Assembly (NCBI RefSeq): GCF_018613325.1
Contig: NZ_JAGGQJ010000033.1
Span: 62,001-126,000, forward strand
DNA length: 64,000 nt
Direction of reading: 5' to 3'
DNA from: Bacillus sp. ISL-34
Lineage (GTDB): Bacteria > Bacillota > Bacilli > Bacillales > DSM-1321
Shown: positions 49,758 through 64,000 of the stretch, in pieces
Numbering within the stretch: position 1 is the first letter of the stretch
How the letters are laid out: each line of letters begins with the position of its first letter
Position numbers and translations under genes: made by a program
The notes under the pieces: model-generated
Told to the model about the DNA's origin: nothing
Database searches by the model: none
The model's input: only the letters and a program-made list of their open reading frames with translations

Positions 49758-49814
49758 ATCATATATGATTTTTAATAAAAATCGATTGCAATCATATATG
49801 ATTTCATATATGAT
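49758..49814. promoter_or_regulatory. Three GntR operators in front of gntR-dapA-hpaE-hpaD
   Basis: ATCATATATGAT at 49758-49769 and again at 49791-49802, directly followed by TTCATATATGAT at 49803-49814. The last two lie head to tail, centred 12 bp apart, and end 6 bases before the gntR ATG. The first is centred 33 bp upstream. Their match to 61403-61426 makes them likely sites of the GntR protein encoded next. Apart from these the 290-bp gap after aspB holds no gene. Confidence 0.75.
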
Positions 49815-49820
49815 GAAAAT

Positions 49821-50498
49821 ATGGAAGAGAAAAACAAAAACCCCAGCAAAAAGCAAATAGCTTATGAGCACCTTCGTAAATTAATTTTGGATGGAACATA
49901 TGGTTCCGGACAGCGGATCATCATTGATCAAAAGGCAAAAGAACTAAGTTTAAGTCCGATTCCTGTCAGGGAAGCGATCAGACAGCTTGAATCTGACGGC
50001 CTTATTCAATATAAGCCTTATAGTGGAGCAGTTGTAACAAGCATAAATGAAAGCGAATACATTGAAACCCTTTCAGTTTTATCTTTGCTTGAAGGATATG
50101 CGGCTGCCCTCAGTTCTTTAACGATGAATGATCAAGATTTTGAAAATCTGATTAATTTAAACAAAGAAATGGAAAAAGCCCTCCATAACTTTGAATTAGA
50201 GCTGTTTGGTAAGTTAAACGAATGTTTCCATGCACAAATTTATGAAAAGTGCGGAAATTCCTTTTTAAAGGAGGAAATTAAACAGGCGCAGCAAAGAATG
50301 AATAGAGTCAGAAAGTCCATGTTCACAATGGTGCCGCAACGCGCAGTCCAATCGATTCGAGAACATGAAAGCATCATAAAGCTTTTAAAGGAAAAAGCAT
50401 CTTTTGAAGAAATTGAATCATTGGTGAGAAAGCATAAATTGAATGCCATTAGTACATTCAAGCAGAGGGCGGAAACTAATCACGATCAGGCACTTTGA
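49821..50498 (+). CDS. GntR family regulator (FCD/FadR type) of 4-HPA catabolism
   Basis: A 225-aa regulator with an N-terminal winged helix (about residues 10-75, including LILDGTYGSGQRI and SPIPVREAIRQLESDGLI) and a helical FCD ligand domain with the metal-type residues in NECFHAQIY and REHESI. It probably represses its own operon and the hpaG1-hpaG2-hpaF operon and is released by a pathway intermediate. The ATG at 49821 has no purine-rich site upstream, since the operators occupy that space; a leaderless or poorly translated message is possible. Confidence 0.9.
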   Translation: MEEKNKNPSKKQIAYEHLRKLILDGTYGSGQRIIIDQKAKELSLSPIPVREAIRQLESDGLIQYKPYSGAVVTSINESEYIETLSVLSLLEGYAAALSSLTMNDQDFENLINLNKEMEKALHNFELELFGKLNECFHAQIYEKCGNSFLKEEIKQAQQRMNRVRKSMFTMVPQRAVQSIREHESIIKLLKEKASFEEIESLVRKHKLNAISTFKQRAETNHDQAL

Positions 50499-50608
50499 TG
50501 ACCCAGGCTTTGTTTTATAATAGTCGATCGATTATTCATAAAAGCAAAGCCGATTTTTTCACTTTGATTATTCCGAATATTCAAATAAATGGAAGGGTGG
50601 TAGAAAAA

Positions 50609-51526
50609 ATGTACGAGGAAATCAAAAGTCGGTTAAGAGGATCAATAGCTCCAGTTATCACTCCGTTTGATGACAAGATGGATGTGGATGTAAAGGCAAT
50701 TGAAAATCTGGTAAACTGGCATATTGAAAGCGGTTCCCATGGAATCTCGGTATGCGGGACTACCGGCGAGCCGAGTTCTTTAACGATTGAGGAACGGGAA
50801 TTAGTGATGGAAACGGCAATTAGAACAGCGAAATCCCGTGTTCCAGTTGCACCAGGTACAGGATCTGCCAATCAGAAAGAAACGTTGCATTTGACAAAAA
50901 GGGCACAGGAAATGGGGGCGGATGCTGCTTTAGTCATCGTTCCTTATTACAATAAGCCGAATCAACAGGCACTTTACAATCATTTTAAGACGGTAGCCGA
51001 TTCCGTTGATATCCCGATTATCGTTTATAACATTCCCGGAAGAACGGGGACGAATTTAGAAGTGAAGACATTGGCACGCTTAGCTGAAGATTGCGAAAAT
51101 ATTATTGGTGTAAAGGAATCTAATAAGGATTTCGAACATGTGAACCGTGTCTTATTGAATTGTGGAAGGGATTTTCTTTTATATTCGGGCATCGAATTAT
51201 TATGCTATCCAATGTTGGCTATTGGAGGGGCAGGACATATTAGTGCTACAGCTAATATCACTCCTAAAGAAGTGGCGGAAATTTATAATCATTGGGTCGA
51301 TGGTGATGTGGAAAAGGCACTTGATCTCCATTACAAATTAATGCCATTGAATGATGTTTTGTTTAAAGAAACCAATCCAGGACCATTAAAGGCTGCGATG
51401 GGGATGATGGGGAAAATCAATCCTGCATTGAGGCCGCCAATGGGACCGCCTTCGGGACCGTTAGAGAAAGAACTGCGTGAAACCCTTCAATCATACGGAT
51501 TGATTGACCAAATAATCCAGTCATAA
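50609..51526 (+). CDS. DapA/DHDPS-family aldolase, probable final step of 4-HPA pathway (HpaI role)
   Basis: A class I (Schiff base) aldolase of 305 aa in the dihydrodipicolinate synthase family. The Schiff-base lysine is Lys169 in IGVKESNKD; GTTGEPS, PYYNKP (Tyr113-114) and YNIPGRTG supply the remaining triad and the carboxylate-binding arginine. In this cluster it most probably splits 2,4-dihydroxyhept-2-ene-1,7-dioate into pyruvate and succinic semialdehyde, the job done by the unrelated HpaI in E. coli; that is inference. A second DHDPS for lysine is the alternative. ATG 50609 has GGAAGGGTGG upstream; the longer frame overlaps gntR. Confidence 0.8.
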   Translation: MYEEIKSRLRGSIAPVITPFDDKMDVDVKAIENLVNWHIESGSHGISVCGTTGEPSSLTIEERELVMETAIRTAKSRVPVAPGTGSANQKETLHLTKRAQEMGADAALVIVPYYNKPNQQALYNHFKTVADSVDIPIIVYNIPGRTGTNLEVKTLARLAEDCENIIGVKESNKDFEHVNRVLLNCGRDFLLYSGIELLCYPMLAIGGAGHISATANITPKEVAEIYNHWVDGDVEKALDLHYKLMPLNDVLFKETNPGPLKAAMGMMGKINPALRPPMGPPSGPLEKELRETLQSYGLIDQIIQS

Positions 51527-51603
51527 TTGCTAAATTGGGAAGATTGCACTAATCCAAACGATTATTGTCATCTTCCCGAATTAATTTTAAAGGAGGATTT
51601 ATC

Positions 51604-53118
51604 ATGCAAACTTTTCCCGTGCAAGATGTCAAGCATTACATCAATGGTCAATTTGTTGATGGTATTTCAGGAAAAACATTTGAAAATCTAAGCCCTTTTA
51701 ATAATCAGGCAATCAATATTGTGGCAGAAGGGTTTAAAGAGGATATTGATCAAGCGGTAGCTGCTGCAAGAGCTGCATTCGATAACGGTCCATGGAGAAC
51801 GATGAAAGTGGAAGAAAGGTTGAAGTACATTAATAGGATTGCTGATTTAATTGAGGAAAATGCCGAAGAAATTTCCTTTTTGGAATCGCTTGATACAGGG
51901 TTGCCGATTAGCCAGACAAAAAAACAGGCGGCAAGGGGAGCGGAGAATTTCCGTTTTTATTCTGAAATGGTGAAAATCAGGCTAATAGGAGAGTCATATC
52001 AAGTGGATGACACTTTCATCAATTATACGATTCATAAACCAATAGGCGTGGCAGGATTAATCACTCCTTGGAATGCGCCTTTCATGTTAGAAACCTGGAA
52101 AATCGCCCCGGCTCTGGCTACAGGTAATACATGTGTCCTTAAACCGGCGGAATGGTCTCCATTGACTGCCAATAAATTGGCACAAATCATTGACCAATCC
52201 GGTCTGCCGAAAGGGGTATTCAATATCGTTCACGGTTTTGGGGAGACAGCAGGGGCGTCCTTGGTTGCCCATCCTGAAGTCCAATTGATATCCTTTACCG
52301 GAGAAACGACGACTGGCGCTGAAATCATTAAAAATGGTGCGGATACAATGAAACGTTTTTCCATGGAGCTCGGGGGCAAATCGCCAGCGGTCATCTTTGG
52401 AGATGCCGATCTGGAAAAGGCCCTGGATTCAGTGGTTTGGGGAATTTATTCATTCAATGGGGAGCGATGCACAGCCAATTCCAGATTATTTGTCCATGAA
52501 TCGATAATAGACCAGTTCGTTGCAGAATTGAAGGAACGTGTTCATAATATAAAAATTGGAAACCCAATGGACCCAGAAACGGAAATCGGACCGCTGATCC
52601 ATCGTAACCATTTTAATAATGTCTCCCGTTATCTGGATATAGCAAAAGATGAAGGGGCGCAAATTGTAAGCGGTGCCATACCGAGTGCGTTCAAGGAAGG
52701 GAATTATATTGCCCCGACGCTTCTCTTGAACTGTACAAATGAGATGACGGTAGCCCAGGAAGAGATTTTTGGACCAGTCATGGCAGTCATTCCTTTCAAG
52801 ACTGAAGAGGAAGTACTGAGAATGGCAAACGATGTAAAGTATGGGCTAGCTGCTTATGTATGGACCAATGATATGAAACGTGGACATAGGTTTGCTCAAG
52901 CTGTCGATAGCGGGATGGTCTGGGTGAATTCCCAAAACGTAAGGGATTTGCGGATACCATTTGGAGGATCAAAATATAGTGGGGTAGGACGTGAAGGTGG
53001 CCATTATAGCTTTGAATTCTACACGGAAACACAAGTTATTCACGTAGCAATTGGGGAACATCACATTCCGAAATTTGGAGATATAAAACGAAATGCCGTT
53101 TCTTCTGCTGAAAAATAA
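51604..53118 (+). CDS. hpaE: 5-Carboxymethyl-2-hydroxymuconate semialdehyde dehydrogenase
   Basis: An NAD+-dependent aldehyde dehydrogenase oxidising the ring-cleavage semialdehyde to 5-carboxymethyl-2-hydroxymuconate. The general base is Glu255 (SMELGGKSP) and the nucleophile Cys289 (NGERCTANSR); TPWNAPFMLETWK is typical of the HpaE group. 504 aa. ATG 51604 follows AAAGGAGG. Second enzyme after ring opening; between the aldolase and hpaD genes. General ALDH activity cannot be excluded but the context is strong. Confidence 0.92.
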   Translation: MQTFPVQDVKHYINGQFVDGISGKTFENLSPFNNQAINIVAEGFKEDIDQAVAAARAAFDNGPWRTMKVEERLKYINRIADLIEENAEEISFLESLDTGLPISQTKKQAARGAENFRFYSEMVKIRLIGESYQVDDTFINYTIHKPIGVAGLITPWNAPFMLETWKIAPALATGNTCVLKPAEWSPLTANKLAQIIDQSGLPKGVFNIVHGFGETAGASLVAHPEVQLISFTGETTTGAEIIKNGADTMKRFSMELGGKSPAVIFGDADLEKALDSVVWGIYSFNGERCTANSRLFVHESIIDQFVAELKERVHNIKIGNPMDPETEIGPLIHRNHFNNVSRYLDIAKDEGAQIVSGAIPSAFKEGNYIAPTLLLNCTNEMTVAQEEIFGPVMAVIPFKTEEEVLRMANDVKYGLAAYVWTNDMKRGHRFAQAVDSGMVWVNSQNVRDLRIPFGGSKYSGVGREGGHYSFEFYTETQVIHVAIGEHHIPKFGDIKRNAVSSAEK

Positions 53119-53149
53119 ACCGGGTTTCATTTAAGAAGGGGAGAATACT

Positions 53150-54133
53150 ATGAATTTTTCTATTATTCGTGTTGCAAGAACGATACTTAATGTAACAGAT
53201 TTAGATAAATCAAGAGCCTTTTATGTGGATGCTTTAGGTTTCATTGAAACGGAAAGAACAAATGATCACATATATTTACGTGGTTTAGAGGAAGCGCATC
53301 ATCACTCTCTTATCTTGCAAAAGGCAGAAAAGCCAAGCGTTGAAGCGATAGGATACAAGGTTGAAAAAGAGGAAGACCTAGAAAAATTGGAATCTTTCTT
53401 CATGTCCAAGGGAATGAAGATGAAGTGGATGAAGGAAGGAACACAGCATGCACTAGGCAAGTCGCTCCGGGTTCAGGATATTTCAGGATTGCCGGTTGAG
53501 TTTTTTAGCAAAATGGATAAAGCAGAGAGATTGCTGCAACGATTCGATATGCATAGGGGTTCAAGGGTCCAAAGGATCGATCATGTAAATTGTAGTGTAA
53601 CGAATGTGCAAAGAGCCCATGATTTTTATGTGAAAGAATTAGGTTTTGCCTGCTCGGAAGATACAGTGGATGAATCGGGTCAATTATGGGCAACGTGGCT
53701 GCATAGAAAGCAAACGGTCCATGACCAGGCATTCATGAACGGACTTGGTCCAAGACTTCATCATGTAGGCTTCTTTCTGCCTGACCCCCTTGCACTTATC
53801 CATGCCTGTGATGTACTGGCATCACTAGGATATGCCCAGTCCATCGAACGCGGTCCCGGAAGGCATGGCCTATCCAATGCATTCTTCCTATATTTAAGAG
53901 ACCCGGACGGTCACAGAATCGAATTATATAATGGGGATTACTTAACAGCTGACCCGGATACCGAACCGATTCATTGGGATTTGAATGATCCAAGGCGTCA
54001 GACCTTCTGGGGAGCCAAAGCTCCGGATTCATGGTTTGATGAGGCTTCTGCTGTTCTAGATATAATATCAGGTGAAGAAGTTCCTCTTGAAGAACCGATT
54101 CTGGCAAAAAGCAAGCCCGAATTCATCATCTGA
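53150..54133 (+). CDS. hpaD: 3,4-Dihydroxyphenylacetate 2,3-dioxygenase (homoprotocatechuate, extradiol)
   Basis: A type I extradiol dioxygenase (VOC fold) opening the ring of homoprotocatechuate with O2. Two VOC modules are visible (about residues 8-125 and 143-270); metal ligands are His145 (IDHVNC), His204 or 205 (RLHHVGF) and Glu258 (RIELYNGDY). 327 aa. The sequence resembles the Brevibacterium Fe- and Arthrobacter Mn-dependent enzymes and not E. coli HpaD, an unrelated type. ATG 53150. Followed at 8 bases by a run of 13 G. Confidence 0.93.
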   Translation: MNFSIIRVARTILNVTDLDKSRAFYVDALGFIETERTNDHIYLRGLEEAHHHSLILQKAEKPSVEAIGYKVEKEEDLEKLESFFMSKGMKMKWMKEGTQHALGKSLRVQDISGLPVEFFSKMDKAERLLQRFDMHRGSRVQRIDHVNCSVTNVQRAHDFYVKELGFACSEDTVDESGQLWATWLHRKQTVHDQAFMNGLGPRLHHVGFFLPDPLALIHACDVLASLGYAQSIERGPGRHGLSNAFFLYLRDPDGHRIELYNGDYLTADPDTEPIHWDLNDPRRQTFWGAKAPDSWFDEASAVLDIISGEEVPLEEPILAKSKPEFII

Positions 54134-54141
54134 AAAGAAGC

Positions 54142-54154
54142 GGGGGGGGGGGGG
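54142..54154 (+). repeat. Run of 13 G after hpaD
   Basis: A single-base tract of 13 G beginning 8 bases after the hpaD stop, in an otherwise AT-rich genome. Long G runs are rare in bacilli; it may be slippage-prone or a sequencing artefact. It lies outside any frame. Confidence 0.9.
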
Positions 54155-54736
54155 ATAGGGTGAATGATTGTGCTTCCCGGCAAAACATATTGAAAATCAT
54201 GATCAATTTGGAGAGGGCGGACATATATCTGTTCACCGCTTAAGGGAACAGAACTGGTGAATAGTTGATGGAAAACTGCTCGATTTTGGAAGATTTGTTT
54301 ACTGAGTTCTTAATGTAACCTTTCACAAAGAAAAGGAAGAAAGATGGATTTGGATATCATTCATGTTCAGCGCCCACTTGAGTTGGCACTTACATTTCAA
54401 TGATTCTCTTAAATTGGAAGGAAAGGAGATTCATATCAAATGGAAAAGTGAAAGAATAAAGAAGTCGAAAAAGATGACGGATATGCGAGCCAAGACTATT
54501 ACTTAAAAGATATGGTCAAAGGAAAGGGCAGCAGTGGGAACTTACTGCTGCCCTATCTGTAAGCGTCATCGGTTAGACAAAAGGAGTACGGAGAGCTTAA
54601 GAATTGGGGATTTATACCTCTTGCAGCAAATGAGTTTGTTTGGGTTAGGGGATCGAGGGGGATATGGGCCAATAAGCAAGCGGCGGATTACTAGTACCGT
54701 CTTTGGAAAAATATAAACAAGTAGAGGTGTGAATTG
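54155..54736. other. About 580 bp without an intact gene, containing a broken small ORF and stem-loop
   Basis: Between hpaD and the DUF485 gene. At 54440 ATG with AAGGAGATTC upstream reads three codons to a TGA, after which the same frame continues for 38 codons (KNKEVEKDDGYASQDYYLK… to a TAA at 54560), perhaps a decayed small protein. GGGCAGCAGT (54526-54535) pairs with ACTGCTGCCC (54544-54553) without a T-run. No promoter is certain. A 60-codon frame from 54534 lies over the stem and looks spurious. Confidence 0.5.
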
Positions 54737-55075
54737 ATGGTTCGGTTGGAAAAAAACCTTGAAGAATCAGAACAAACTAATCTAGTGGATTATGAAAAGA
54801 TTGTTGCCTCCAAAGAGTTTCAGAATATGCTTTCCGATAAAAAGAAATTCATCATCCCTTTTACAATTTTCTTTATGGGATATTCCCTGCTTTTGCCCTT
54901 CTTAGTTTTTTACACAAATATCCTGGATCACCCTTTCATAGGAGACATAACATGGGCGTGGGTGTACGGTGTCTCCATTACGGTTATGTCTGTATGGGTT
55001 TGCAGCATATATGTAAGGAAATCAGAAGGAATCGATGAACAAATAAAAGAAATCATCGAGAAAGAAGGGCTTTGA
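54737..55075 (+). CDS. DUF485 membrane protein (symporter partner)
   Basis: A 112-aa protein with two membrane helices (about residues 38-60 and 75-95) and a helical charged N-terminus (YEKIVASKEFQNMLSDKKKF), the DUF485 pattern. Such proteins are found next to acetate/solute:sodium symporters (the YjcH-ActP pair) and end 3 bases before the transporter here. Their role may be in stabilising or tuning transport. ATG 54737 has AGAGGTG upstream; TTG 54734 is the adjacent alternative. Confidence 0.87.
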   Translation: MVRLEKNLEESEQTNLVDYEKIVASKEFQNMLSDKKKFIIPFTIFFMGYSLLLPFLVFYTNILDHPFIGDITWAWVYGVSITVMSVWVCSIYVRKSEGIDEQIKEIIEKEGL

Positions 55076-55078
55076 ATC

Positions 55079-56644
55079 ATGAATTGGACAGTTATTATTC
55101 TCTTTGCACTAATGTCGATAGGCACCCTTTTCATTACGTATTTCGCTTCAAAAAAAACTAAAACGGCAGGCTCTTTTTATACGGCTGGGGGCGGTTTGAC
55201 CGCTAGGCAAAATGGACTTGCACTGGCCGGGGATTTTATGTCGGCATCCACGTTTTTAGGGTTGATTGGAGCATTTTCCTTAACGGGGTATGATGGATTT
55301 TTCCTGATGTATGGAGCACTTGTATCATTCCTTGTCGTGTTATTCCTAGTGGCTGAACCTTTAAGGAACTTAGGGAAATACACATTGGCTGATATGGTGA
55401 CTACAAGGTTTAAATATAAACAGGTCCGGGGAGTGACCGCTTTCAATACCTTGGTGATATCAGTCATGTACATGCTGGGTCAACTTGTTGCTGCAGGTGC
55501 TTTATTTAAATTGCTTTTAGACATCCCGTATAATACCTCTGTCATCATCGTAGGTATTGTAATGTTGGTATTTGTTCTATTTGGGGGGATGACGGCGACG
55601 AGCTGGGTGCAGATCATTAAAGCCATCCTGCTGATTGGCGGAGTGTTTATATTATTCATGATCGTCATGTGGAAGTTGAATTTTAGTTTCATCGGAATTT
55701 TCACGGAAATGAAAACAGCGACACCCATGGGTGCAGATTACCTGAAGGCAGGTATTAAATATGCCAGTGGGTGGGATGCAGCTTCCTTGTCTCTGGGCCT
55801 AATTCTGGGAACGGCAGGTCTACCGCACATATTAATCCGTTTTTTGACTGTCCCGAATGCACAAGTGGCAAGGAAGTCGGTTGTTTGGGTGATGTGGATT
55901 ATGGGTGCTTTTCATATCATGGTCATTTTTCTCGGATTCGGTGCTGCGAAGTTGGTTGGAACATCGAATATCATGGCCGCTAATCCAGCGGGTAACATGG
56001 CTGCACCTTTATTGGCCCAACTTGTGGGCGGGGACATCTTATTCGCCTTTATTGCGGCCGTTTCCTTTGCAACGATACTCGCAGTTGTTGCGGGAATCGT
56101 TTTAACAGGTGCTACGGCATTTTCACATGATTTTTACAATGAAATATTAAAAGATGGAAAAGCTACGGAAAAACAGCAAATGACTATGGCTAGATGGGCT
56201 TCCATTGGTGTGACTGCACTTGCAATCGTTTTATCATTAGGTCTGCAGGAATTCAATGTAGCGTTTCTGGCATCGATTGCCTTTACATTGGCCGCCAGTT
56301 CGAATTTACCAGTCATCCTTCTTACGATCTATTGGAAAAAATTCAATAAAACCGGTGCAATAGTCGGTATGATGACAGGTCTTTTTGGTACACTTTTGCT
56401 CGTGGCACTAAGTCCAAATGTCTGGAACCCGGTCCCCGGAGCCACCATTATGACAGGTGACCCGATTTTTCCTTTGAATTCACCAGGAATCGTTTCCATT
56501 CCGCTTGGGTTCCTTGCATGCTATTTGGGTGCCATGCTCGGTAACCGCAGGACTGGTTTGGAAACGGTTACAAAAGACAATTATAATGAAATCCTCGTAA
56601 AGTCCAATACCGGTCATGATGTTAAGGGTGTTTTGCGACATTGA
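55079..56644 (+). CDS. Solute:sodium symporter (ActP-like), probable 4-HPA or aryl-acid importer
   Basis: A 521-aa protein with about 13 membrane helices of the SSS family (ActP branch). Family segments include GGGLTARQNGLALAGDFMSASTFLG, GLPHILIRFLTVPNAQVAR and LAASSNLPVILL. It ends in a hydrophilic tail. Substrate is assigned from context only: it sits in the hpa cluster, so uptake of 4-hydroxyphenylacetate or a related organic acid is likely, acetate being the alternative. Coupled to the DUF485 gene; ended by a hairpin at 56696. Confidence 0.85.
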   Translation: MNWTVIILFALMSIGTLFITYFASKKTKTAGSFYTAGGGLTARQNGLALAGDFMSASTFLGLIGAFSLTGYDGFFLMYGALVSFLVVLFLVAEPLRNLGKYTLADMVTTRFKYKQVRGVTAFNTLVISVMYMLGQLVAAGALFKLLLDIPYNTSVIIVGIVMLVFVLFGGMTATSWVQIIKAILLIGGVFILFMIVMWKLNFSFIGIFTEMKTATPMGADYLKAGIKYASGWDAASLSLGLILGTAGLPHILIRFLTVPNAQVARKSVVWVMWIMGAFHIMVIFLGFGAAKLVGTSNIMAANPAGNMAAPLLAQLVGGDILFAFIAAVSFATILAVVAGIVLTGATAFSHDFYNEILKDGKATEKQQMTMARWASIGVTALAIVLSLGLQEFNVAFLASIAFTLAASSNLPVILLTIYWKKFNKTGAIVGMMTGLFGTLLLVALSPNVWNPVPGATIMTGDPIFPLNSPGIVSIPLGFLACYLGAMLGNRRTGLETVTKDNYNEILVKSNTGHDVKGVLRH

Positions 56645-56695
56645 ATGATGTGCCTATAAATAAAGTGCAGGTCATCGCACTTGTGAATCGAATTT

Positions 56696-56724
56696 AAAAA
56701 GCAGCCATCTAGGTTGCTTTTTTT
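56696..56724 (+). terminator. Terminator after the symporter gene
   Basis: AAAAAGCAGCC pairs with GGTTGCTTTTT (one G-U), followed by T-rich sequence; the LysR gene converges from the other side. Confidence 0.75.
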
Positions 56725-56812
56725 CTTTTTCATTGGAATAGAAATTCAAACCAACACCATAGATTATGAGAAGAGGTACAAATGATATGAAGGTTTAAGG
56801 ATAACTGGCCAT

Positions 56813-57682
56813 TCATTCAGAAAATGTTTCTAGAAATTTGACGGCGCCTTTGGAAAGATAGCGTTCTTCGAGCCAAATAAGGGCGGCTTCGGATTGTACT
56901 TCACAATCTATCAATTCGACAATTTTTATACCCTGGGTTGAAAACGATTTGGATGTGGTACGTGGCATGATGGTAGCGCCTATTCCCTCCTTCACTAAAG
57001 ATAATATCATTGCAGCATCAGGACATTCACATAGAACCGCAGGTTCAAATCCATGTCTGAAGCACTCATCCACTATAAGTTCATAAGTACCTGGACCGCT
57101 TACCCTATGCAGCAATAAGAGGGGAAATTCCTTAATTTGTTTAAATTCGATGCAGTCTGGGATATCCCAATCATTTGGGGTGACAAGTACAAAATCTTCC
57201 GGTGGAAGGTTAACCGATGAGAATCGCTTCCCGTTAATTGGGAGTCGCACAATGGCCAACTCGATTTCCCTGTTTATTAAGCCTTCCGTCAAACGGTACG
57301 TATCTCCTTCCATTAACTTGAAGCGTATCTCAGGAAACTTTGCTCTAAAGGTTTTCATCCTTTGTGGAATGTAAGAAAAGCAAGTTTTTACTGACCCTAT
57401 GGAAAGAGTGCCCTTTACCCCTTTACTGACTTCCTTCACTTCCAGAAGTGTTTCTTCAAACTGGTTCAATAGAGCTTCAGCTTTTTTATATAGGACATGG
57501 CCAGTTTCAGTGAGTTCAAGTTTCTTTCCATTCCGATCGAAAAGTTTTTCACCGATTTCCATTTCCATCAATTTAAGTTGCTGGCTAAGGGGCGGTTGAG
57601 CCATATGCAATTTTTTTGCAGCTTTTGTTACTTGTTCTTCCTGAACGATTGTCACAAAATATTTTAACTGCCGAATGTCCAT
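56813..57682 (-). CDS. LysR family transcriptional regulator
   Basis: A 289-aa regulator: N-terminal helix-turn-helix (residues 1-60, MDIRQLKYFVTIVQEEQVTKAAKK and AQPPLSQQLKLME) and a periplasmic-binding-like effector domain. Divergent from hpaB1, which it likely regulates in response to an aromatic ligand. On the minus strand the ATG at 57682 has a GAGGTG site; a further upstream ATG exists in frame. The 165-bp gap to hpaB1 holds a candidate binding site (57748-57771). Confidence 0.9.
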   Translation of the reverse strand: MDIRQLKYFVTIVQEEQVTKAAKKLHMAQPPLSQQLKLMEMEIGEKLFDRNGKKLELTETGHVLYKKAEALLNQFEETLLEVKEVSKGVKGTLSIGSVKTCFSYIPQRMKTFRAKFPEIRFKLMEGDTYRLTEGLINREIELAIVRLPINGKRFSSVNLPPEDFVLVTPNDWDIPDCIEFKQIKEFPLLLLHRVSGPGTYELIVDECFRHGFEPAVLCECPDAAMILSLVKEGIGATIMPRTTSKSFSTQGIKIVELIDCEVQSEAALIWLEERYLSKGAVKFLETFSE

Positions 57683-57747
57683 TTGATACACCTCATACAT
57701 ATGATTTACATATACATATTGAATTTTTTAAGTATTTTATATATATC

Positions 57748-57771
57748 ATAACACATGGTATATTTTGTTAT
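57748..57771. promoter_or_regulatory. Candidate LysR box between lysR and hpaB1
   Basis: ATAACA-N12-TGTTAT (57748-57753 and 57766-57771), an inverted repeat of the spacing LysR dimers use, in the divergent promoter region. Confidence 0.45.
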
Positions 57772-57804
57772 AGAAATTAATTCAATATTTAGAATTTATT
57801 ATAT

Positions 57805-57818
57805 TGTAAGCGCTTCAT
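57805..57818. promoter_or_regulatory. cre-like site upstream of hpaB1
   Basis: TGTAAGCGCTTCAT matches the relaxed CcpA consensus TGWAARCGYTWNCW at 13 of 14 positions; 29 bases before the hpaB1 start. Suggests glucose repression of the hydroxylase gene. Confidence 0.4.
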
Positions 57819-57847
57819 TTACATTGATGCTAAAGGGGGATGCAAGC

Positions 57848-59320
57848 ATGCCGGCTAAAACAGGTAAAGAATATATCGATAGGGTAGACAAAGCAAAGGC
57901 GAATGTATGGATAAATGGAGAGCAAGTAAAAGATAAGATCAGTCAACACCCAGCTTTTAAAGGGGTCATGAAAACACAGGCTGAATTATATGATTTGCAG
58001 CATGATTCCGCGAAAAATGACATCATGACTTATATTTCACCAACTTCAAACGAAAGAGTAGGGACCTCATTCATGCAGCCGCGGACTAAGGAAGACCTTG
58101 AAAAAAGGAGGAAAATGATTCAAGAATGGGCAAGGCATAATAATGGAATGATGGGACGTTCCCCTGACTATATCAACAGTGGGATGATGGCGTACGGTAC
58201 TGCAGCGGATATGTTCGGCACTCAGGATTCGGCATTTGCAAAAAATATGAAGGATTATTATGAGCTCTGCCGGGAAGAGGATTTGTCGTTGACACATACC
58301 TTGATTCAACCCCAAGTTAATAGGGGAGTTAGTGCCGCAAAGCTTCCGGACCCTTACATCGCTGCACGGATTGCTGGCAAGAATTCAGAAGGGCTTATTA
58401 TAAAGGGAGCCAGATTATTAGCTACACAAGGTGGAATAACGGATGAAATCATGGTTTTCCCTTCAACATTGCTAAAACAATCAGAAGAAGAAAACCCTTA
58501 TGCATTCGCATTCTCCATACCAAATAATACACCGGGGTTGAAATTCATCTGTCGTGAATCATTCGACTATGGCAAATCACATTTTGACCATCCACTTGGT
58601 TCACGATTTGAGGAAATGGATACGATTATCGTTTTTGATGATGTAGTCGTTCCTTGGAATCGGGTATTTGCATATGGGGATGTCGGCATTTGCAACCAGG
58701 CTTATAATGAAAGCAATGCAGTTGTTCATATGACCCATCAGGTGGTATCGAAGAATATCGCCAAAACCGAGTTCATTCTGGGGATTTTGCAACTTATGGT
58801 GGAAACCATCAATATTGGGCAATACCAGCATGTTCAGGAGAAAATCTCGGAAGTCATCATAGCGCTTGAAACGCTAAAGGCTTTCATTACAGCTTCGGAG
58901 GCAAACGCGAAAGTGGATAAATGGGGAATGATGACACCTGATTTTACACCATTAAACATTGCCCGTAATTATTATCCGAAGATTTACCCTAGATTCAGTG
59001 AAATAATGCAGCTTCTTGGAGCTAGCGGCTTAATGGCGATTCCAAATGAAGCCGATTTCAATTCCGAGCTTCGACCGGATTTGGATAAATATCTTCAAGC
59101 CGCGAATGGCGGAGCCTATGACAGGGTAAAATTGTATCGTCTCGCATGGGATGTATGCATGAGTTCATTTGGATCCAGGCAAACGCTGTACGAAAGATTC
59201 TTTTTTGGAGATCCGGTCCGTATGGCGAGCGCTTTATATAACGGCTATGATAAACAGGAATATGTGGATCGTGTCAAGGAGTTCTTGAACCGCACTGAAA
59301 ACCTTGCAGAAATAAACTGA
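57848..59320 (+). CDS. hpaB: 4-Hydroxyphenylacetate 3-monooxygenase oxygenase, Thermus-type (HpaB-1)
   Basis: A FADH2-dependent oxygenase that hydroxylates 4-HPA to homoprotocatechuate using flavin from a separate reductase. The 490-aa protein follows Thermus thermophilus HpaB closely: NLWYKGEKV-like NVWINGEQVKD, MMGRSPDYINSGMMAYG, QVNRGVSAAKLPDPYIAA, and the C-terminal LYERFFFGDPVRM. ATG 57848 has AAAGGGGGATGC upstream; the frame is open further back across the promoter. No flavin reductase lies beside it. A second oxygenase of another lineage occurs at 61580. Confidence 0.9.
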   Translation: MPAKTGKEYIDRVDKAKANVWINGEQVKDKISQHPAFKGVMKTQAELYDLQHDSAKNDIMTYISPTSNERVGTSFMQPRTKEDLEKRRKMIQEWARHNNGMMGRSPDYINSGMMAYGTAADMFGTQDSAFAKNMKDYYELCREEDLSLTHTLIQPQVNRGVSAAKLPDPYIAARIAGKNSEGLIIKGARLLATQGGITDEIMVFPSTLLKQSEEENPYAFAFSIPNNTPGLKFICRESFDYGKSHFDHPLGSRFEEMDTIIVFDDVVVPWNRVFAYGDVGICNQAYNESNAVVHMTHQVVSKNIAKTEFILGILQLMVETINIGQYQHVQEKISEVIIALETLKAFITASEANAKVDKWGMMTPDFTPLNIARNYYPKIYPRFSEIMQLLGASGLMAIPNEADFNSELRPDLDKYLQAANGGAYDRVKLYRLAWDVCMSSFGSRQTLYERFFFGDPVRMASALYNGYDKQEYVDRVKEFLNRTENLAEIN

Positions 59321-59347
59321 GCACGGCAGCATTGGCAAAACATTTTA

Positions 59348-59386
59348 ATTTAAAGGCCTTCCCGATGATGAGGAAGGCCTTTAAAT
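59348..59386. terminator. Bidirectional terminator between hpaB1 and hpaF
   Basis: A 15-bp perfect stem ATTTAAAGGCCTTCC (59348-59362) / GGAAGGCCTTTAAAT (59372-59386) with a 9-nt loop, serving the two converging genes. Confidence 0.88.
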
Positions 59387-59398
59387 ATGAAATCTTGT

Positions 59399-59785
59399 TC
59401 ATTTATTATATCGTTTATGGATATTATTCTTTTTATATGTGCCAAAGTCACTGAATTCCGTAAGTTCCATGGAGAGGGCAAGATACCTTTTTGAAAAGAG
59501 GGATGACAAATGGGTTTCCATCGTTTCGAAAAGTTGGTCACATACTTTGGTTTTATCACTGTCCTGGCGTCCAGCGCCAATTTTTAGTACGGCATGAACA
59601 AAGGCATCATCCTCTGTACCATCGGCAACACGATAATGCTTCAATTCAATGGCCCGGGAACGAATGCCGCCAATTGGAAAGATGGAAGGATAAGATATCA
59701 GTACATCATTCACCTTCCTTAATAAGTTGTCAATCTGGATTTCATCTTTGATATTATCCGTATATTCAATAATAATATGAGGCAT
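59399..59785 (-). CDS. hpaF: 5-Carboxymethyl-2-hydroxymuconate delta-isomerase
   Basis: A tautomerase-fold isomerase converting 5-carboxymethyl-2-hydroxymuconate to 2-oxo-5-carboxy-hept-3-enedioate. The N-terminus MPHIIIEYTDN supplies the catalytic Pro once Met is removed, and SRAIELKHYRVADG.EDDAFVHA is typical. 128 aa. Last gene of the minus-strand hpaG1-hpaG2-hpaF operon, 4 bases after hpaG2. Confidence 0.92.
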   Translation of the reverse strand: MPHIIIEYTDNIKDEIQIDNLLRKVNDVLISYPSIFPIGGIRSRAIELKHYRVADGTEDDAFVHAVLKIGAGRQDSDKTKVCDQLFETMETHLSSLFSKRYLALSMELTEFSDFGTYKKNNIHKRYNK

Positions 59786-59789
59786 GTGA

Positions 59790-60590
59790 TTAGTCCCTTC
59801 CGTTAATTCTGGATTTTAGGTGAGGCAGATCCCCGCCTTCAGTAAATATATCGTCACCGACTATTGTGCTGACGAGTTTCCCGATACCTTCAATTTCAGT
59901 GATGATTTCATCGCCTACAGCAGTATCCGCCAATCCTTCTGGTGTGCCTGTCAATATGATATCGCCTGGTCTCAATGTCATGAAGCTGCTAAAATATTCA
60001 ATTAAATCAGCAATGCTGAAAATCATGTCTTTCGTGTTGCCTTGCTGAGTCAATTTTCCGTTGACGTAGGTTTTGATGGCAAGATTCGAAGGATCTGGAA
60101 TATCTTTGGCATCGACTAGCCACGGCCCAATGGGGGTGCAGGTATCGCGATTTTTGACCTTTAAGTTCGGTCGGTAGTAATTCTCCAGATAATCCCGTAT
60201 TGCATAATCATTTGCGATCGTATATCCACTTACATACTTAAAGGCTTCTTCCTTTTTTATGTTCTTCGCCTTTTTTCCGATGACGACTGCCAGTTCACAT
60301 TCATAATGCATATAAGCTGCATCTGCAGGCCGTCTTGTCTGTCCCCGGTGGCCGATAAAGGTATTGGGACCTTTTAAGAACGCAAGGGGTTCTTCCGGGG
60401 CTTTAAAAGCAAGCTCCTTCGCATGGTCTGCATAATTCAAGCCAAGCGCGAAGACAGTTCGTGGTTCCACCGGGGGAAGCCAGACAACATTCTGCTCATT
60501 GACAATCCGGCCATCCGCCAATTGTAGCTGGCCATGATATTCAATTGCTGGATGTATGGCACCTGCATAGGCTACACGTGCTCTCTTCAT
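59790..60590 (-). CDS. Fumarylacetoacetate hydrolase-family protein, HpaG C-terminal-type isomerase/decarboxylase subunit
   Basis: 266 aa of the FAH fold. FALGLNYADHAKEL, the metal motif ECELAVVIGKKAKN, GYTIANDYAIRDY and LRPGDIILTGTPEGL are present. It corresponds to the C-terminal half of the fused E. coli HpaG, which decarboxylates and isomerises the OPET intermediate. Its start overlaps the stop of the upstream homologue by 4 bases. Could also take over the hydratase (HpaH) role, since that gene is not seen. Confidence 0.87.
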   Translation of the reverse strand: MKRARVAYAGAIHPAIEYHGQLQLADGRIVNEQNVVWLPPVEPRTVFALGLNYADHAKELAFKAPEEPLAFLKGPNTFIGHRGQTRRPADAAYMHYECELAVVIGKKAKNIKKEEAFKYVSGYTIANDYAIRDYLENYYRPNLKVKNRDTCTPIGPWLVDAKDIPDPSNLAIKTYVNGKLTQQGNTKDMIFSIADLIEYFSSFMTLRPGDIILTGTPEGLADTAVGDEIITEIEGIGKLVSTIVGDDIFTEGGDLPHLKSRINGRD

Positions 60591-61375
60591 AAAATCCCCT
60601 CCAGTGACAGTTTTTCTTCGGAAATGATGGTATTTTCCAAATATCCGATTTCGTCAATTTCTATTCTGACATGATCATTGGCTTTTGCCAGCGGTGCATT
60701 CTCTGGAACTCCAACCAGAAGGACGTCACCCGTACTCAAAGTCATGAAGTCTGTTACATCCTCAATAAGGCGTGATATGGAGCGAATTAGATTTGAAGTT
60801 GAATTTTCTTGCCTTAGCTCTCCATTTATATATACACGGATTCCTAAAGAATCGGGGTTGGATATAAATTCCTTGGATACGACCCAGGGACCGATCGGGC
60901 AAAATCCATCACGGGCTTTATGGCGGATAGCAGGGCGGAAAACGCTTTCATGAGGGATGCTAATATCATTGGCAATCGTAAATCCTTCTATATAATCCAA
61001 TGCATGTTCTTTCTTGACTCTTGTGGCCGTTTTACTGATTACAATTCCAAGTGCGGCCCCGATTTCCAATTCAGGTATGCTGTTTGGAAGGGGAACTGGA
61101 TTTGAAAAAGAGGAAAACGTGTTTCTAGGTTTAATATAAAGGATCGGCCCTTTAGGAGGTTCATTATAGGGAGGATGGTCGAACTTTCCCTTCAATCCTT
61201 CCAATGATCCTTTATAGTTTAATAATGTTCCATATACCGTTCCAGAAATAGGGTTATCCAACTTTATTTGTGATACCTCATACTTATTACCGTCCATTAA
61301 TATATAGCGGTTCGACAGTATTTCGATTTCTTCGGAATAATCTGACTTTTGGAGCTTCACCCTTGCTTTTTTCAT
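60587..61375 (-). CDS. Fumarylacetoacetate hydrolase-family protein, HpaG N-terminal-type subunit
   Basis: 262 aa of the FAH fold and homologue of the next gene. GTVYGTLLNYKGSLEGL, the metal-type ELEIGAALGIVIS, GFTIANDISIPHESVFRP and STGDVLLVGVPENAP are visible. It matches the N-terminal half of fused HpaG, so the enzyme here is a split, probably heteromeric protein. The minus-strand ATG at 61375 is preceded by GGGGTGAG; a GTG at 61381 is the alternative. First gene of the operon and downstream of the paired GntR operator. Confidence 0.87.
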   Translation of the reverse strand: MKKARVKLQKSDYSEEIEILSNRYILMDGNKYEVSQIKLDNPISGTVYGTLLNYKGSLEGLKGKFDHPPYNEPPKGPILYIKPRNTFSSFSNPVPLPNSIPELEIGAALGIVISKTATRVKKEHALDYIEGFTIANDISIPHESVFRPAIRHKARDGFCPIGPWVVSKEFISNPDSLGIRVYINGELRQENSTSNLIRSISRLIEDVTDFMTLSTGDVLLVGVPENAPLAKANDHVRIEIDEIGYLENTIISEEKLSLEGIL

Positions 61376-61402
61376 GGACACTCACCCCTTGATTTTTTAT
61401 TA

Positions 61403-61426
61403 ATCATATATGATATCGTATATGAT
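61403..61426. promoter_or_regulatory. Paired GntR operator between hpaG1 and hpaB2
   Basis: ATCATATATGAT (61403-61414) directly followed by ATCGTATATGAT (61415-61426): the same 12-bp head-to-tail arrangement as at 49791-49814. Located 28 bases upstream of the hpaG1 start on the minus strand and about 35 bases upstream of a possible -10 TATAAT (61462-61467) on the plus strand. Confidence 0.75.
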
Positions 61427-61579
61427 TTTTTGCTTAAGTTCAACAAATTTAGATTATTCAGTATAATTAGACAAAAAATGTTAGAAAAAAGATTGGTTTC
61501 AACAGAAAAATGCCTTGAACATTTAGTTAGTATGAAGCTAGGAATTCAAATTGAAAGAATGTGAATGGGGGATGTTCCA

Positions 61580-63079
61580 ATGATGAATGGCAAAGAGTAT
61601 TTAGAAAGTTTACGAGATGGAAGAACTGTATTCTTGAACGGCGATAAGGTAGATGATGTGACGACACACCCGGCATATCGCAATTCTGCCAGATCAATTG
61701 CCCAACTATATGATGCTCTCCATGATCCGGTAAGTGCACGGATTTTAACGGCCAGGACAGATGCAGGCCATACTACCCATAAGTTTTTCAAGGCTTCAAA
61801 GAACGCAACAGAGCTGCTTGAAGCAAGGGATGCCATAGCACAATGGTCAAAATTGAGCTATGGTTTCATGGGTCGTACGCCTGATTACAAAGCTGCTTTT
61901 ACAGGATCATTGGGACCGTATAGCGATTTTTATAAGGGATTTGAAGATAATGCGAAAAGATGGTATGAAAAAACCACAAGGGACGTTCCCTTCTGTAACC
62001 ATACAATTATAAATCCGGCAATGGATAGGAATAAACCGCTACATGAAAATAAAGAGGTTTTTGTGCGTACTGTAGAAGAACGGGATGATGGAATAACCGT
62101 AAGCGGAGCCAAAATGGTTGGAACTTCTGCAGCTCTTACGAATTACAATTTTGTCGCGAATTATTCTCCTGTCGATCTTGGGGAAGGAGATAGAAGCCAT
62201 GCATTGATTTTCTTTGTGCCGATGAATGCGCCGGGATTAAAAATGATCAGCAGACAGTCTTTTGAAGAAACGGCTGCCAAGACAGGCACTCCTTTCGATT
62301 ACCCGCTTTCAAGCCGGTTCGACGAAAATGACGCAGTCATCGTCCTAGATCATGTTTTCATCCCATGGGAGAATGTATTCGCCTATAATAATGTGGAAAT
62401 TGCCAATGGATTTAGATCCAAGACTGGGTGGATGAACCGATATACATTTCATGGCTGTACACGCTATGCGGTGAAATTGGACTTTATGGCTGGGCTTCTA
62501 ATGAAGGCTACGGAAATGGCAGGAACGAATCAATTTAGGGGAGTTCAAGCCAATATCGGGGAAGTGCTTGCTTACAGGAATATGTTTTGGGCAATCTCGA
62601 CAGCGATGGCTGCAGATCCGATGGAAGGGCCCAATGGCACCGTTCTGCCCAATAGCACATACGCAACTGCATATAGGGTGTTCGCACCTATGGTTTGGCC
62701 AAAGGTGAAACAGATATTTGAACAGGTTGTAGCAGGTAATCTCATTCAACTCCCATCAAGCTCCAAAGATTTTTTAAACCCTGAGGTCCGTCCGTATCTC
62801 GATAAATATTATAAGGGTTCAGGCGGGGTTTCGGCTGTGGAAAGGGTAAAACTGATGAAACTTATATGGGATTCCATCGGAACGGAATTTGGTGGAAGGA
62901 ATGAGTTATATGAAATCAATTATGCGGGTAACCATGAAAATATTAGGCTTGAAACCATGAAAATGGCAGATTCAAATGGACAATCGGATAAATTCAAAGC
63001 TTTTGTGGACTCGGCAATGGACGATTATGACCTTCATGGCTGGACAAATGATAAGTGGATAAATGAAGATGAAGATTAA
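61580..63079 (+). CDS. 4-Hydroxyphenylacetate 3-monooxygenase oxygenase, E. coli-type (HpaB-2)
   Basis: A second FADH2-dependent oxygenase, 499 aa, of the lineage that contains E. coli HpaB: DGRTVFLNGDKVDDVTTHPA, RDAIAQWSKLSYGFMGRTPDYKAAF, PLSSRFDENDAVIVLDHVFIPWENV and GTEFGGRNELYEINYAG. It may act on 4-HPA or on a related phenol. ATG 61580 is preferred (GGGGGAT 8 bases before); an ATG at 61565 is possible. Divergent from hpaG1 across the paired operator. The reductase partner is not in the window. Confidence 0.88.
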   Translation: MMNGKEYLESLRDGRTVFLNGDKVDDVTTHPAYRNSARSIAQLYDALHDPVSARILTARTDAGHTTHKFFKASKNATELLEARDAIAQWSKLSYGFMGRTPDYKAAFTGSLGPYSDFYKGFEDNAKRWYEKTTRDVPFCNHTIINPAMDRNKPLHENKEVFVRTVEERDDGITVSGAKMVGTSAALTNYNFVANYSPVDLGEGDRSHALIFFVPMNAPGLKMISRQSFEETAAKTGTPFDYPLSSRFDENDAVIVLDHVFIPWENVFAYNNVEIANGFRSKTGWMNRYTFHGCTRYAVKLDFMAGLLMKATEMAGTNQFRGVQANIGEVLAYRNMFWAISTAMAADPMEGPNGTVLPNSTYATAYRVFAPMVWPKVKQIFEQVVAGNLIQLPSSSKDFLNPEVRPYLDKYYKGSGGVSAVERVKLMKLIWDSIGTEFGGRNELYEINYAGNHENIRLETMKMADSNGQSDKFKAFVDSAMDDYDLHGWTNDKWINEDED

Positions 63080-63270: not shown

Positions 63271-64000
63271 ATGACGAATCTTTTGAATCTTAAGAATGAT
63301 AAAGGTGAAATTCATTTAAATGATGAGAGGATGATCCTGACTTCCTCTTCAATTTTCGGTACCCTAAGAAAAGATTTGATCGAAAATATTGGATTTGAAA
63401 GGATGAAGTCTTTTTTAATACGTTATGGCTGGAATATCGGAGTCAATGATGCTAAAAAGGCACTAAAAGGGAATTTGTCAACGGTTAAGGAAATACTGAG
63501 GCAAGGGCCCATTTTACATATGCTGCAGGGTTATACAAAAGTTAATACTACGAAACTGGAATTATCAATGCATAATCAAACGGATGTACACTCTGTGAAG
63601 GTGGAAGGGGTTTGGGTGAATTCCTATGAGGCAGAGGAACATATCACCCAGACAGGCATCGCAAAAAAGCCAGTCTGTTATACATTGACGGGTTATGCAA
63701 GTGGATTTTATTCAACGGTCTGCGGTCATGAAGTGATTTTTAAGGAAAGTGCCTGTAAGGGAGCAGGCCAATTAGAGTGTATATACGAAGGTAAATCGAT
63801 ACATTTATGGGGCATGGAGATTCAGGATGAGTTGAAATATTATAAAAGCAAACCGATTGTTCAAGAGCTTGCCGTGACATATGAAAAGCTGCTGGAGGAA
63901 CGCAATAGTTTGTCAAAAGTGATGGATATTCATAATTTGCTGACAGAAGAGTTAATTAACGGAAGAAGCCTTCAATCGATTGTGAGGACGGTTTATCAGA
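63271..64000 (+). CDS. XylR_N/V4R-domain transcriptional regulator (3'-truncated by window end)
   Basis: Begins ATG 63271 after AGGGGGAATC and stays open to the window end (243 codons). The first 110 residues look like an XylR N-terminal activator domain (LRKDLIENIGFERMKSFLIRYGWNIG) that binds aromatic compounds. A V4R metal-type domain follows (about 140-180: YASGFYSTVCGHEVIFKESACKGAGQLEC), then a coiled-coil linker. In Firmicutes this head is often joined to a PucR-type helix-turn-helix and not a sigma-54 AAA+ domain; the tail is not visible. Probably the aromatic sensor of the cluster. Confidence 0.78.
   Translation, partial: MTNLLNLKNDKGEIHLNDERMILTSSSIFGTLRKDLIENIGFERMKSFLIRYGWNIGVNDAKKALKGNLSTVKEILRQGPILHMLQGYTKVNTTKLELSMHNQTDVHSVKVEGVWVNSYEAEEHITQTGIAKKPVCYTLTGYASGFYSTVCGHEVIFKESACKGAGQLECIYEGKSIHLWGMEIQDELKYYKSKPIVQELAVTYEKLLEERNSLSKVMDIHNLLTEELINGRSLQSIVRTVYQ

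Follow-up and report, generated by a model that had tools for sequence, protein, structure and literature searches.

Abutting palindromic boxes at both ends of a 4-hydroxyphenylacetate island of Bacillus sp. ISL-34: a predicted operator of a VanR-type FCD regulator

The question raised by this locus is which protein a repeated pair of 12-bp boxes would serve, and in what arrangement. The stretch analysed (hereafter the window; 64,000 nucleotides of Bacillus sp. ISL-34, positions 62,001 to 126,000 of contig NZ_JAGGQJ010000033.1, forward strand) carries an 11.6-kb island of 4-hydroxyphenylacetate (4-HPA) genes, and two such boxes abut at each end of the island, before the regulator gene gntR and beside hpaG1. 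We consider it about two-thirds probable that the boxes are the operator of the gntR product, a VanR-type FCD autorepressor that would occupy them as neighbouring dimers and so block the gntR-hpaIED and hpaG promoters, with gntR itself transcribed without a leader. The boxes, in window coordinates, are as follows.

49758-49769, box A, single upstream palindrome ATCATATATGAT, 33 bp start to start from box B
49791-49802, box B, primary palindrome ATCATATATGAT, within the -35/-10 spacer of gntR
49803-49814, box C, second palindrome TTCATATATGAT, abutting box B
61403-61414, box 1 of the hpaG operator, ATCATATATGAT
61415-61426, box 2 of the hpaG operator, ATCGTATATGAT, holding the predicted hpaG1 -10 element

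Read on the opposite strand the 12-mer is unchanged, and every exact copy is therefore a complete palindromic site; the second box of each pair is the palindrome with one mismatch. The first-pass annotation had reported ATCATATATGAT followed by TTCATATATGAT at 49791-49814, ATCATATATGAT followed by ATCGTATATGAT at 61403-61426 and the extra ATCATATATGAT at 49758-49769, and these letters and coordinates are exact; it had also called the spacing equal at the two ends of the island, as indeed it is, both pairs abutting at 12 bp. Its label 'head-to-tail' is meaningless for single boxes because the 12-mer is self-complementary, and each pair is two adjacent palindromes. The genome-wide search that it had proposed, run for the 24-mer at up to three mismatches over 5.38 Mb, gave no unrelated copies and only the two island sites, 49791-49814 and 61403-61426 (reversed control, 0; expected from 100 shuffles of the window, 0.00). 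Exact copies of the 12-mer number three in the genome, every one in the island. At one mismatch there are 44 sites, five inside and 39 outside the island, and the reversed control has 19; a single box alone is therefore not specific, and specificity is carried by the box pair. One of the outside sites, C14:29763, is internal to another FCD gene's reading frame. The 12-mer was not found in the open-access papers searched.

The pair follows the regulator gene across genomes. The genus referred to below is that of the present genome, which it shares with records named Peribacillus. Among 43 genomes of the family, all 20 carriers of a gntR ortholog have exactly two copies of the 24-mer at up to two mismatches, and one of the 23 non-carriers has any (G001, a single copy with two mismatches, in a genome with no ortholog at 1e-40). 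Across the class (398 genomes), the 24-mer is present in 17 of 39 ortholog carriers and in 6 of 359 other genomes (P = 1e-14 by Fisher's exact test), a survey that scored at most seven candidates per genome, so that some 'non-carriers' could hold a missed ortholog. It stands beside gntR or hpa genes in 16 of the 17 class carriers, the exception being G288. The six non-carrier sites comprise those of G356 and G370 and one shared by G179, G190, G260 and G375, all of one genus. No hpa gene was found within 1.5 kb on either side of these six sites or of the G288 site, and we have taken all of them as background.

The spacing within the pair was examined across orthologous loci. The list of 62 gntR loci is not a set of independent observations, as 17 come from the genus and L046 and L125 lie on the same contig; pair counts used 44 of them, with L038-L047, L122-L127, L057 and L103 omitted. 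With 85 boxes at up to one mismatch as anchors and boxes at up to three mismatches as partners, 39 anchor-partner counts fell at 12 bp in both directions together, compared with a background of about 0.05 per offset and direction. Counted once, these are 34 pairs, spread over 23 of the 44 loci, 20 of them near gntR and 14 elsewhere. The L051 and L054 loci share part of a contig, and through this one 32-bp pair and one of the 14 elsewhere were double-counted, leaving 33 distinct 12-bp pairs. In other genera the pairs also occur near hpaD, hpaG, hpaI and other genes. The next commonest distances are 24, 32-33 and 44-45 bp; distances of 8, 10, 11 and 14 bp gave no pairs, 13 bp gave one and 7 bp gave three. 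At 12 bp a box is one helical turn and some 1.5 bp from its partner, and at 33 bp three turns and again some 1.5 bp, two turns more than at 12 bp; because both are whole turns plus the same remainder, the angular step from box A to box B would be nearly equal to that from box B to box C. A bolder reading, which we offer tentatively and think somewhat more apt to fail than to hold, is a phase-locked array of GntR dimers on boxes at 12, 24, 33 and 45 bp, forming an operator-promoter-leaderless-start cassette of about 66 bp in several Bacilli families.

Conservation is concentrated on the boxes. In 11 aligned genus loci, poor upstream conservation extends up to box A and is followed by near-invariant boxes A, B and C and the ATG; the sequence between boxes A and B varies and its length is constant. 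Within the genus, both boxes of a pair show 0-2 mismatches per box at the gntR and hpaG promoters. Sixteen same-genus loci were long enough to show box A (L124 falls short), and all sixteen have it at 33 bp, as do L088, L091, L093 and L095. It stands at 32 bp in L048 (two mismatches) and L090, and at 24 bp in L096 and L097; it was not found in the remainder of the 52 loci searched, at two mismatches and those distances. For finer comparison we used 34 gntR promoters, picked by TA[TC]NNT before the ATG after dropping 18 of 52 loci (16 same-genus relatives, L057 and L103), with ten loci lacking the 6-nt geometry described below outside the set. Aligned on the ATG, the two halves of box B match the consensus at 5.24 and 5.35 of six positions. 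The -10 half of box C matches at 5.5 of six, a value partly fixed by the selection rule, which bears on four columns of that half. Four other columns of box C fall outside the rule, and there R is kept in 31, T in 32, A in 29 and G in 28 of the 34 promoters, contrary to the sigma-A consensus: the R-T-A before the -10 and the G within it depart from both the sigma-A and the extended -10 consensus. Their retention argues for a protein site at box C, though a weaker one than box B.

The promoters that the boxes would cover were predicted by eye.

49786-49791, + strand, predicted gntR -35, TTGCAA, its final base common to box B
49809-49814, + strand, predicted gntR -10, TATGAT, 17 bp past the -35 and forming the right half of box C
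61420-61415, - strand, predicted hpaG1 -10, TACGAT, within box 2
61438-61443, - strand, predicted hpaG1 -35, TTGAAC, 17 bp from its -10
61439-61444 and 61462-61467, + strand, predicted hpaB2 promoter, TTCAAC, 17 bp, TATAAT

The 17-bp spacer of gntR contains all of box B except its first base, and a -35 of the TTGaa form is common in divergent orthologs. The gntR ATG lies exactly 6 nt past TATGAT; as this is the usual distance from a -10 to a transcription start, the predicted +1 is the A of the ATG. No Shine-Dalgarno-like motif was found upstream of this ATG in the window, and from the promoter geometry together with that absence gntR is probably transcribed into a leaderless mRNA. Of 62 gntR loci, 52 have an ATG exactly 6 nt past a TAYNNT hexamer (35 of 45 outside the genus), a count that flatters the leaderless reading to the extent that the fitting ATG was picked where a gene had several start candidates; among all ATGs of the window, both strands included, 27 of 2960 have TAYNNT at that distance. 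Seven of the ten loci without the exact geometry have a scripted -10/-35 pair with a gap of 6-7 nt, and L116 has by eye a -10 at such a gap, without a good -35. The FCD genes of the same genome gave 15 matches, 14 of them over cut-off, and with at most four candidate starts examined in each, the geometry stands at a plausible start in gntR only; L162 shows it at an internal ATG, and several (e.g. L152 and L154) have no Shine-Dalgarno sequence flagged at their listed starts, with the true start uncertain. Leaderless repressor mRNAs are known from lambda cI, transcribed from PRM, and from Tn1721 tetR, in which the start codon is at the transcription start; these are not FCD regulators, and they are without tandem boxes of the 12-bp type. 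One locus, L101, has two gntR homologs 2.6 kb apart (L101:9295-9969 and L101:11935-12612), both with an ATG 6 nt past a -10-like hexamer and with box pairs of differing quality.

At the other end of the island the same 12-bp pair stands in another register, box 1 covering the start region of hpaG1 and box 2 holding the -10. The likely hpaG1 start is the ATG at 61375, preceded by a Shine-Dalgarno-like AGGGGTGA. The predicted hpaG1 and hpaB2 promoters are divergent with overlapping -35 hexamers, both of which are provided by the heptamer GTTCAAC at 61438-61444, and the box pair is located upstream of the -35 predicted for hpaB2. Ten genus loci extend past hpaG. The operator beside hpaG is retained in all ten; hpaB2 is full in L122 and a remnant in L039, and was not found in the other eight (L045-L047 and L123-L127; seven distinct genomes, as L046 and L125 are one contig), from which 2.6 to 12 kb past hpaG had been fetched. 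A 619-aa protein with XylR_N, V4R, GGDEF_2 and HTH_30 domains adjoins hpaB2 (window 63271-64000, on to L167:2131); it joins a XylR-type sensor to a PucR-type output. The gene is full length in L122, partial in L039 and not found in the fetched part of the eight other loci, and its product is likely an aromatic-responsive regulator and putative activator of hpaB2. Control of hpaB2 by the box pair is doubtful, because the operator is kept without hpaB2, the pair lies upstream of the -35 and this putative activator adjoins the gene. We set hpaB2 aside as a necessary target, since loci in which no hpaB2 was found retain the operator, and the 61403-61426 operator is best assigned to hpaG. The earlier suggestion that GntR controls its own operon and the divergent units thus stands in part: the pair overlaps the predicted gntR and hpaG1 promoters and tracks the FCD-GntR gene, and its extension to hpaB2 is doubtful.

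That the regulator is an FCD member of the GntR family, as first annotated, is supported by both domains of the 49821 product, PF00392 (GntR, the N-terminal winged helix) and PF07729 (FCD, C-terminal), each over cut-off. Its AlphaFold2 model has six FCD helices in residues 77-224, as for the VanR group, which has six rather than seven (PMC7797058, PMC12042122); by this helix count in a model of moderate confidence, the product is best read as VanR-type. Its solved relatives are FCD regulators, including Atu1419, the top Foldseek match of the model; in a second structural comparison several FCD structures, DhdR, PmiR and McbR among them, outrank it. Across 32 orthologs the recognition-helix residues P48, R50, E51 and A52 are invariant and I47 is almost so; N133, H137, H182 and H205 are invariant as well. 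Many FCD proteins have a metal site of Asp or Asn and three His, and by analogy these last four residues may form that of GntR.

The genes concerned, and the regulator gene that figures in a rival explanation below, are listed here.

49821-50498, + strand, gntR, FCD/GntR regulator (Pfam FCD 4e-18, GntR 7e-11)
50609-51526, + strand, hpaI-type aldolase (DapA fold), first gene past gntR (TIGR02313 above cut-off)
51604-53118, + strand, hpaE, 5-carboxymethyl-2-hydroxymuconate semialdehyde dehydrogenase (TIGR02299 above cut-off)
53150-54133, + strand, hpaD, 3,4-dihydroxyphenylacetate 2,3-dioxygenase (TIGR02295 above cut-off)
56813-57700, LysR regulator gene within the island
59399-59785, - strand, hpaF, 5-carboxymethyl-2-hydroxymuconate isomerase (Pfam CHMI 2.7e-53)
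59790-60590, - strand, hpaG2, HpaG C-terminal type (TIGR02303 above cut-off)
60587-61381, - strand, hpaG1, HpaG N-terminal type (TIGR02305 above cut-off)

From the computed boxes, spacings, co-occurrence and promoter/ATG geometry we infer binding, dimer number, repression, operon limits, effector and leaderless transcription, and would picture the system as follows. GntR would bind ATCRTATAYGAT palindromes set end to end, exactly 12 bp apart, most likely as two side-by-side dimers rotated by about 50 degrees relative to each other around the helix. At gntR, where box B lies in the -35/-10 spacer and box C holds the -10, occupancy would exclude RNA polymerase, and box A, three helical turns upstream, would lengthen the array. 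GntR would thereby repress two opposed operons, its own (gntR-hpaI-hpaE-hpaD) and hpaG1-hpaG2-hpaF, and a pathway compound in the FCD metal pocket would probably free it from the DNA. The gntR message would begin at its own ATG.

Several observations weigh against this picture. No 12-bp pair passes the cut used in 21 of 44 loci, and 22 of 39 class carriers have no 24-mer at up to two mismatches; those inspected have more degenerate boxes. In two orthologs, L050 and L051, the start codon follows a leader with a Shine-Dalgarno sequence. The structural model is moderate (pLDDT 79.9, pTM 0.65) and was built without DNA. The left half of box C matches the consensus at 3.76 of six positions in the 34 promoters, compared with 2.0 for random draws, so that the box C of divergent orthologs may be a weak site or a half-site. 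This last point bears on an alternative that we regard as unlikely yet deserving of attention, namely that a single dimer sits at each promoter, on box B alone as a longer palindrome AAATCATATATGATTT, with box C serving mainly as the -10 and as an auxiliary half-site. The near-perfect box B of divergent orthologs beside a degenerate left half of box C would fit such an arrangement, as would the 16-bp extended palindrome kept at box A within the genus, and in the FadR subfamily a weaker half-site has been reported beside the main palindrome, 7-12 nt from its centre (PMC4494728). Against it, the genus boxes are full or nearly full palindromes at both promoters, the hpaG1 pair stands in the other register to its predicted -10, and 12-bp pairs are also seen at other operators that lack the TTG-17-TATNAT layout.

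It is quite improbable that a tetrameric GntR bridges two operators by looping the DNA, either between box A and boxes B and C or between the two ends of the island. The solved relative Atu1419 is a tetramer that loops palindromes 190 bp apart (PMC7797058), and operators do stand at both ends of the island, with box A at 32-33 bp where it is present; a 33-bp loop would be very short, however, and many orthologs show no box A or have other gene orders. Still less probable is that the pairs belong to another regulator and are merely linked to gntR. The LysR gene at 56813-57700 sits within the island and is one candidate, but at an identity of at least 40% only three of the 45 loci outside the genus have it and six of the 17 genus loci do not, and L045-L047 and L124-L126 retain both operators without it. 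Sites of LysR regulators are usually T-N11-A inverted repeats. The loci were chosen for gntR, so that its presence in them is by construction, and the unbiased evidence is the genome-wide co-occurrence. Chance AT-rich palindromes near promoters are a scarcely credible source of the pairs: the genome does hold the 44 one-mismatch 12-mers and seven class genomes have a 24-mer away from hpa genes, but the pair statistics, the spacing peak and the co-occurrence with gntR all speak against it.

The first-pass annotation knew of no double operator for FCD regulators of homoprotocatechuate. In the open-access literature we likewise found none for that pathway, and no paper tying a GntR regulator to homoprotocatechuate in Bacilli (most subscription papers lay outside the search); for FCD regulators in general, however, operators with several sites or dimers have been described, as for NanR and Atu1419. 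Atu1419 of Agrobacterium fabrum is a VanR-type FCD GntR tetramer with 10-bp palindromes, which, as predicted for GntR, represses itself and the genes of an aromatic-acid pathway, that of hydroxycinnamic acid; it too has a short palindrome, ATGTATACAT, with copies over -10 elements and one between a -35 and a -10 (PMC7797058). As described there, distances of 190 and 109 bp separate its palindromes, whereas the GntR boxes abut at 12 bp, and its half-site has a G third from the centre, where the GntR boxes mostly have an A, with a C one step outward. NanR of Escherichia coli is an FCD GntR of which several dimers pack on one continuous, spacing-dependent operator (PMC8012715). Three dimers pack on the direct repeat (GGTATA)3, in contrast to the island boxes, which are palindromes without GGTATA, and cooperativity needs a 32-residue N-terminal extension, which is absent from GntR, its first helix being at residue 10 of the model.

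The additional half-sites of the FadR subfamily are described, in a 2015 comparative study, as weaker boxes with no known function (PMC4494728); the extra box here can be a full palindrome, is fixed at 12 bp and is merged with the -10. The island pair presents that theme clearly and with its spacing fixed. The canonical FadR-subfamily operator is given there as NyGTM-N0-1-KACNy, with GT and AC 2-3 nt apart around the centre; the window boxes ATCATATATGAT are without GT..AC and box 2 at 61415 has one GT, and the orthologs L114, L117 and L118 carry ATCGTATACGAT, which fits GT-N2-AC. The accessible text of the study has no occurrence of hydroxyphenylacetate at the start of a word.

What our analysis puts forward for the homoprotocatechuate pathway of Bacilli is a proposed regulator together with an operator code. 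The orthologous loci provide a natural promoter set with fixed box spacings in which cooperation of neighbouring FCD dimers, including the unexplained additional half-sites, may be studied, and they present a repressor gene, probably leaderless, that recurs across Bacilli with its start codon locked to the operator. In enterobacteria the 4-HPA meta-cleavage genes are repressed by HpaR/HpcR of the MarR family, which would thus share the pathway target with GntR but differ in protein family and operator.

The island also holds two distinct HpaB oxygenases (57755-59320 and 61565-63079), one an HpaB-1 type over cut-off and the other nearer to HpaB-2, below its cut-off. L045-L047 are without the island transporter genes as well as the LysR gene, and in L041 DinG, HpaE, SSF and HpaB1 appear as split reading frames, possibly through sequencing errors.

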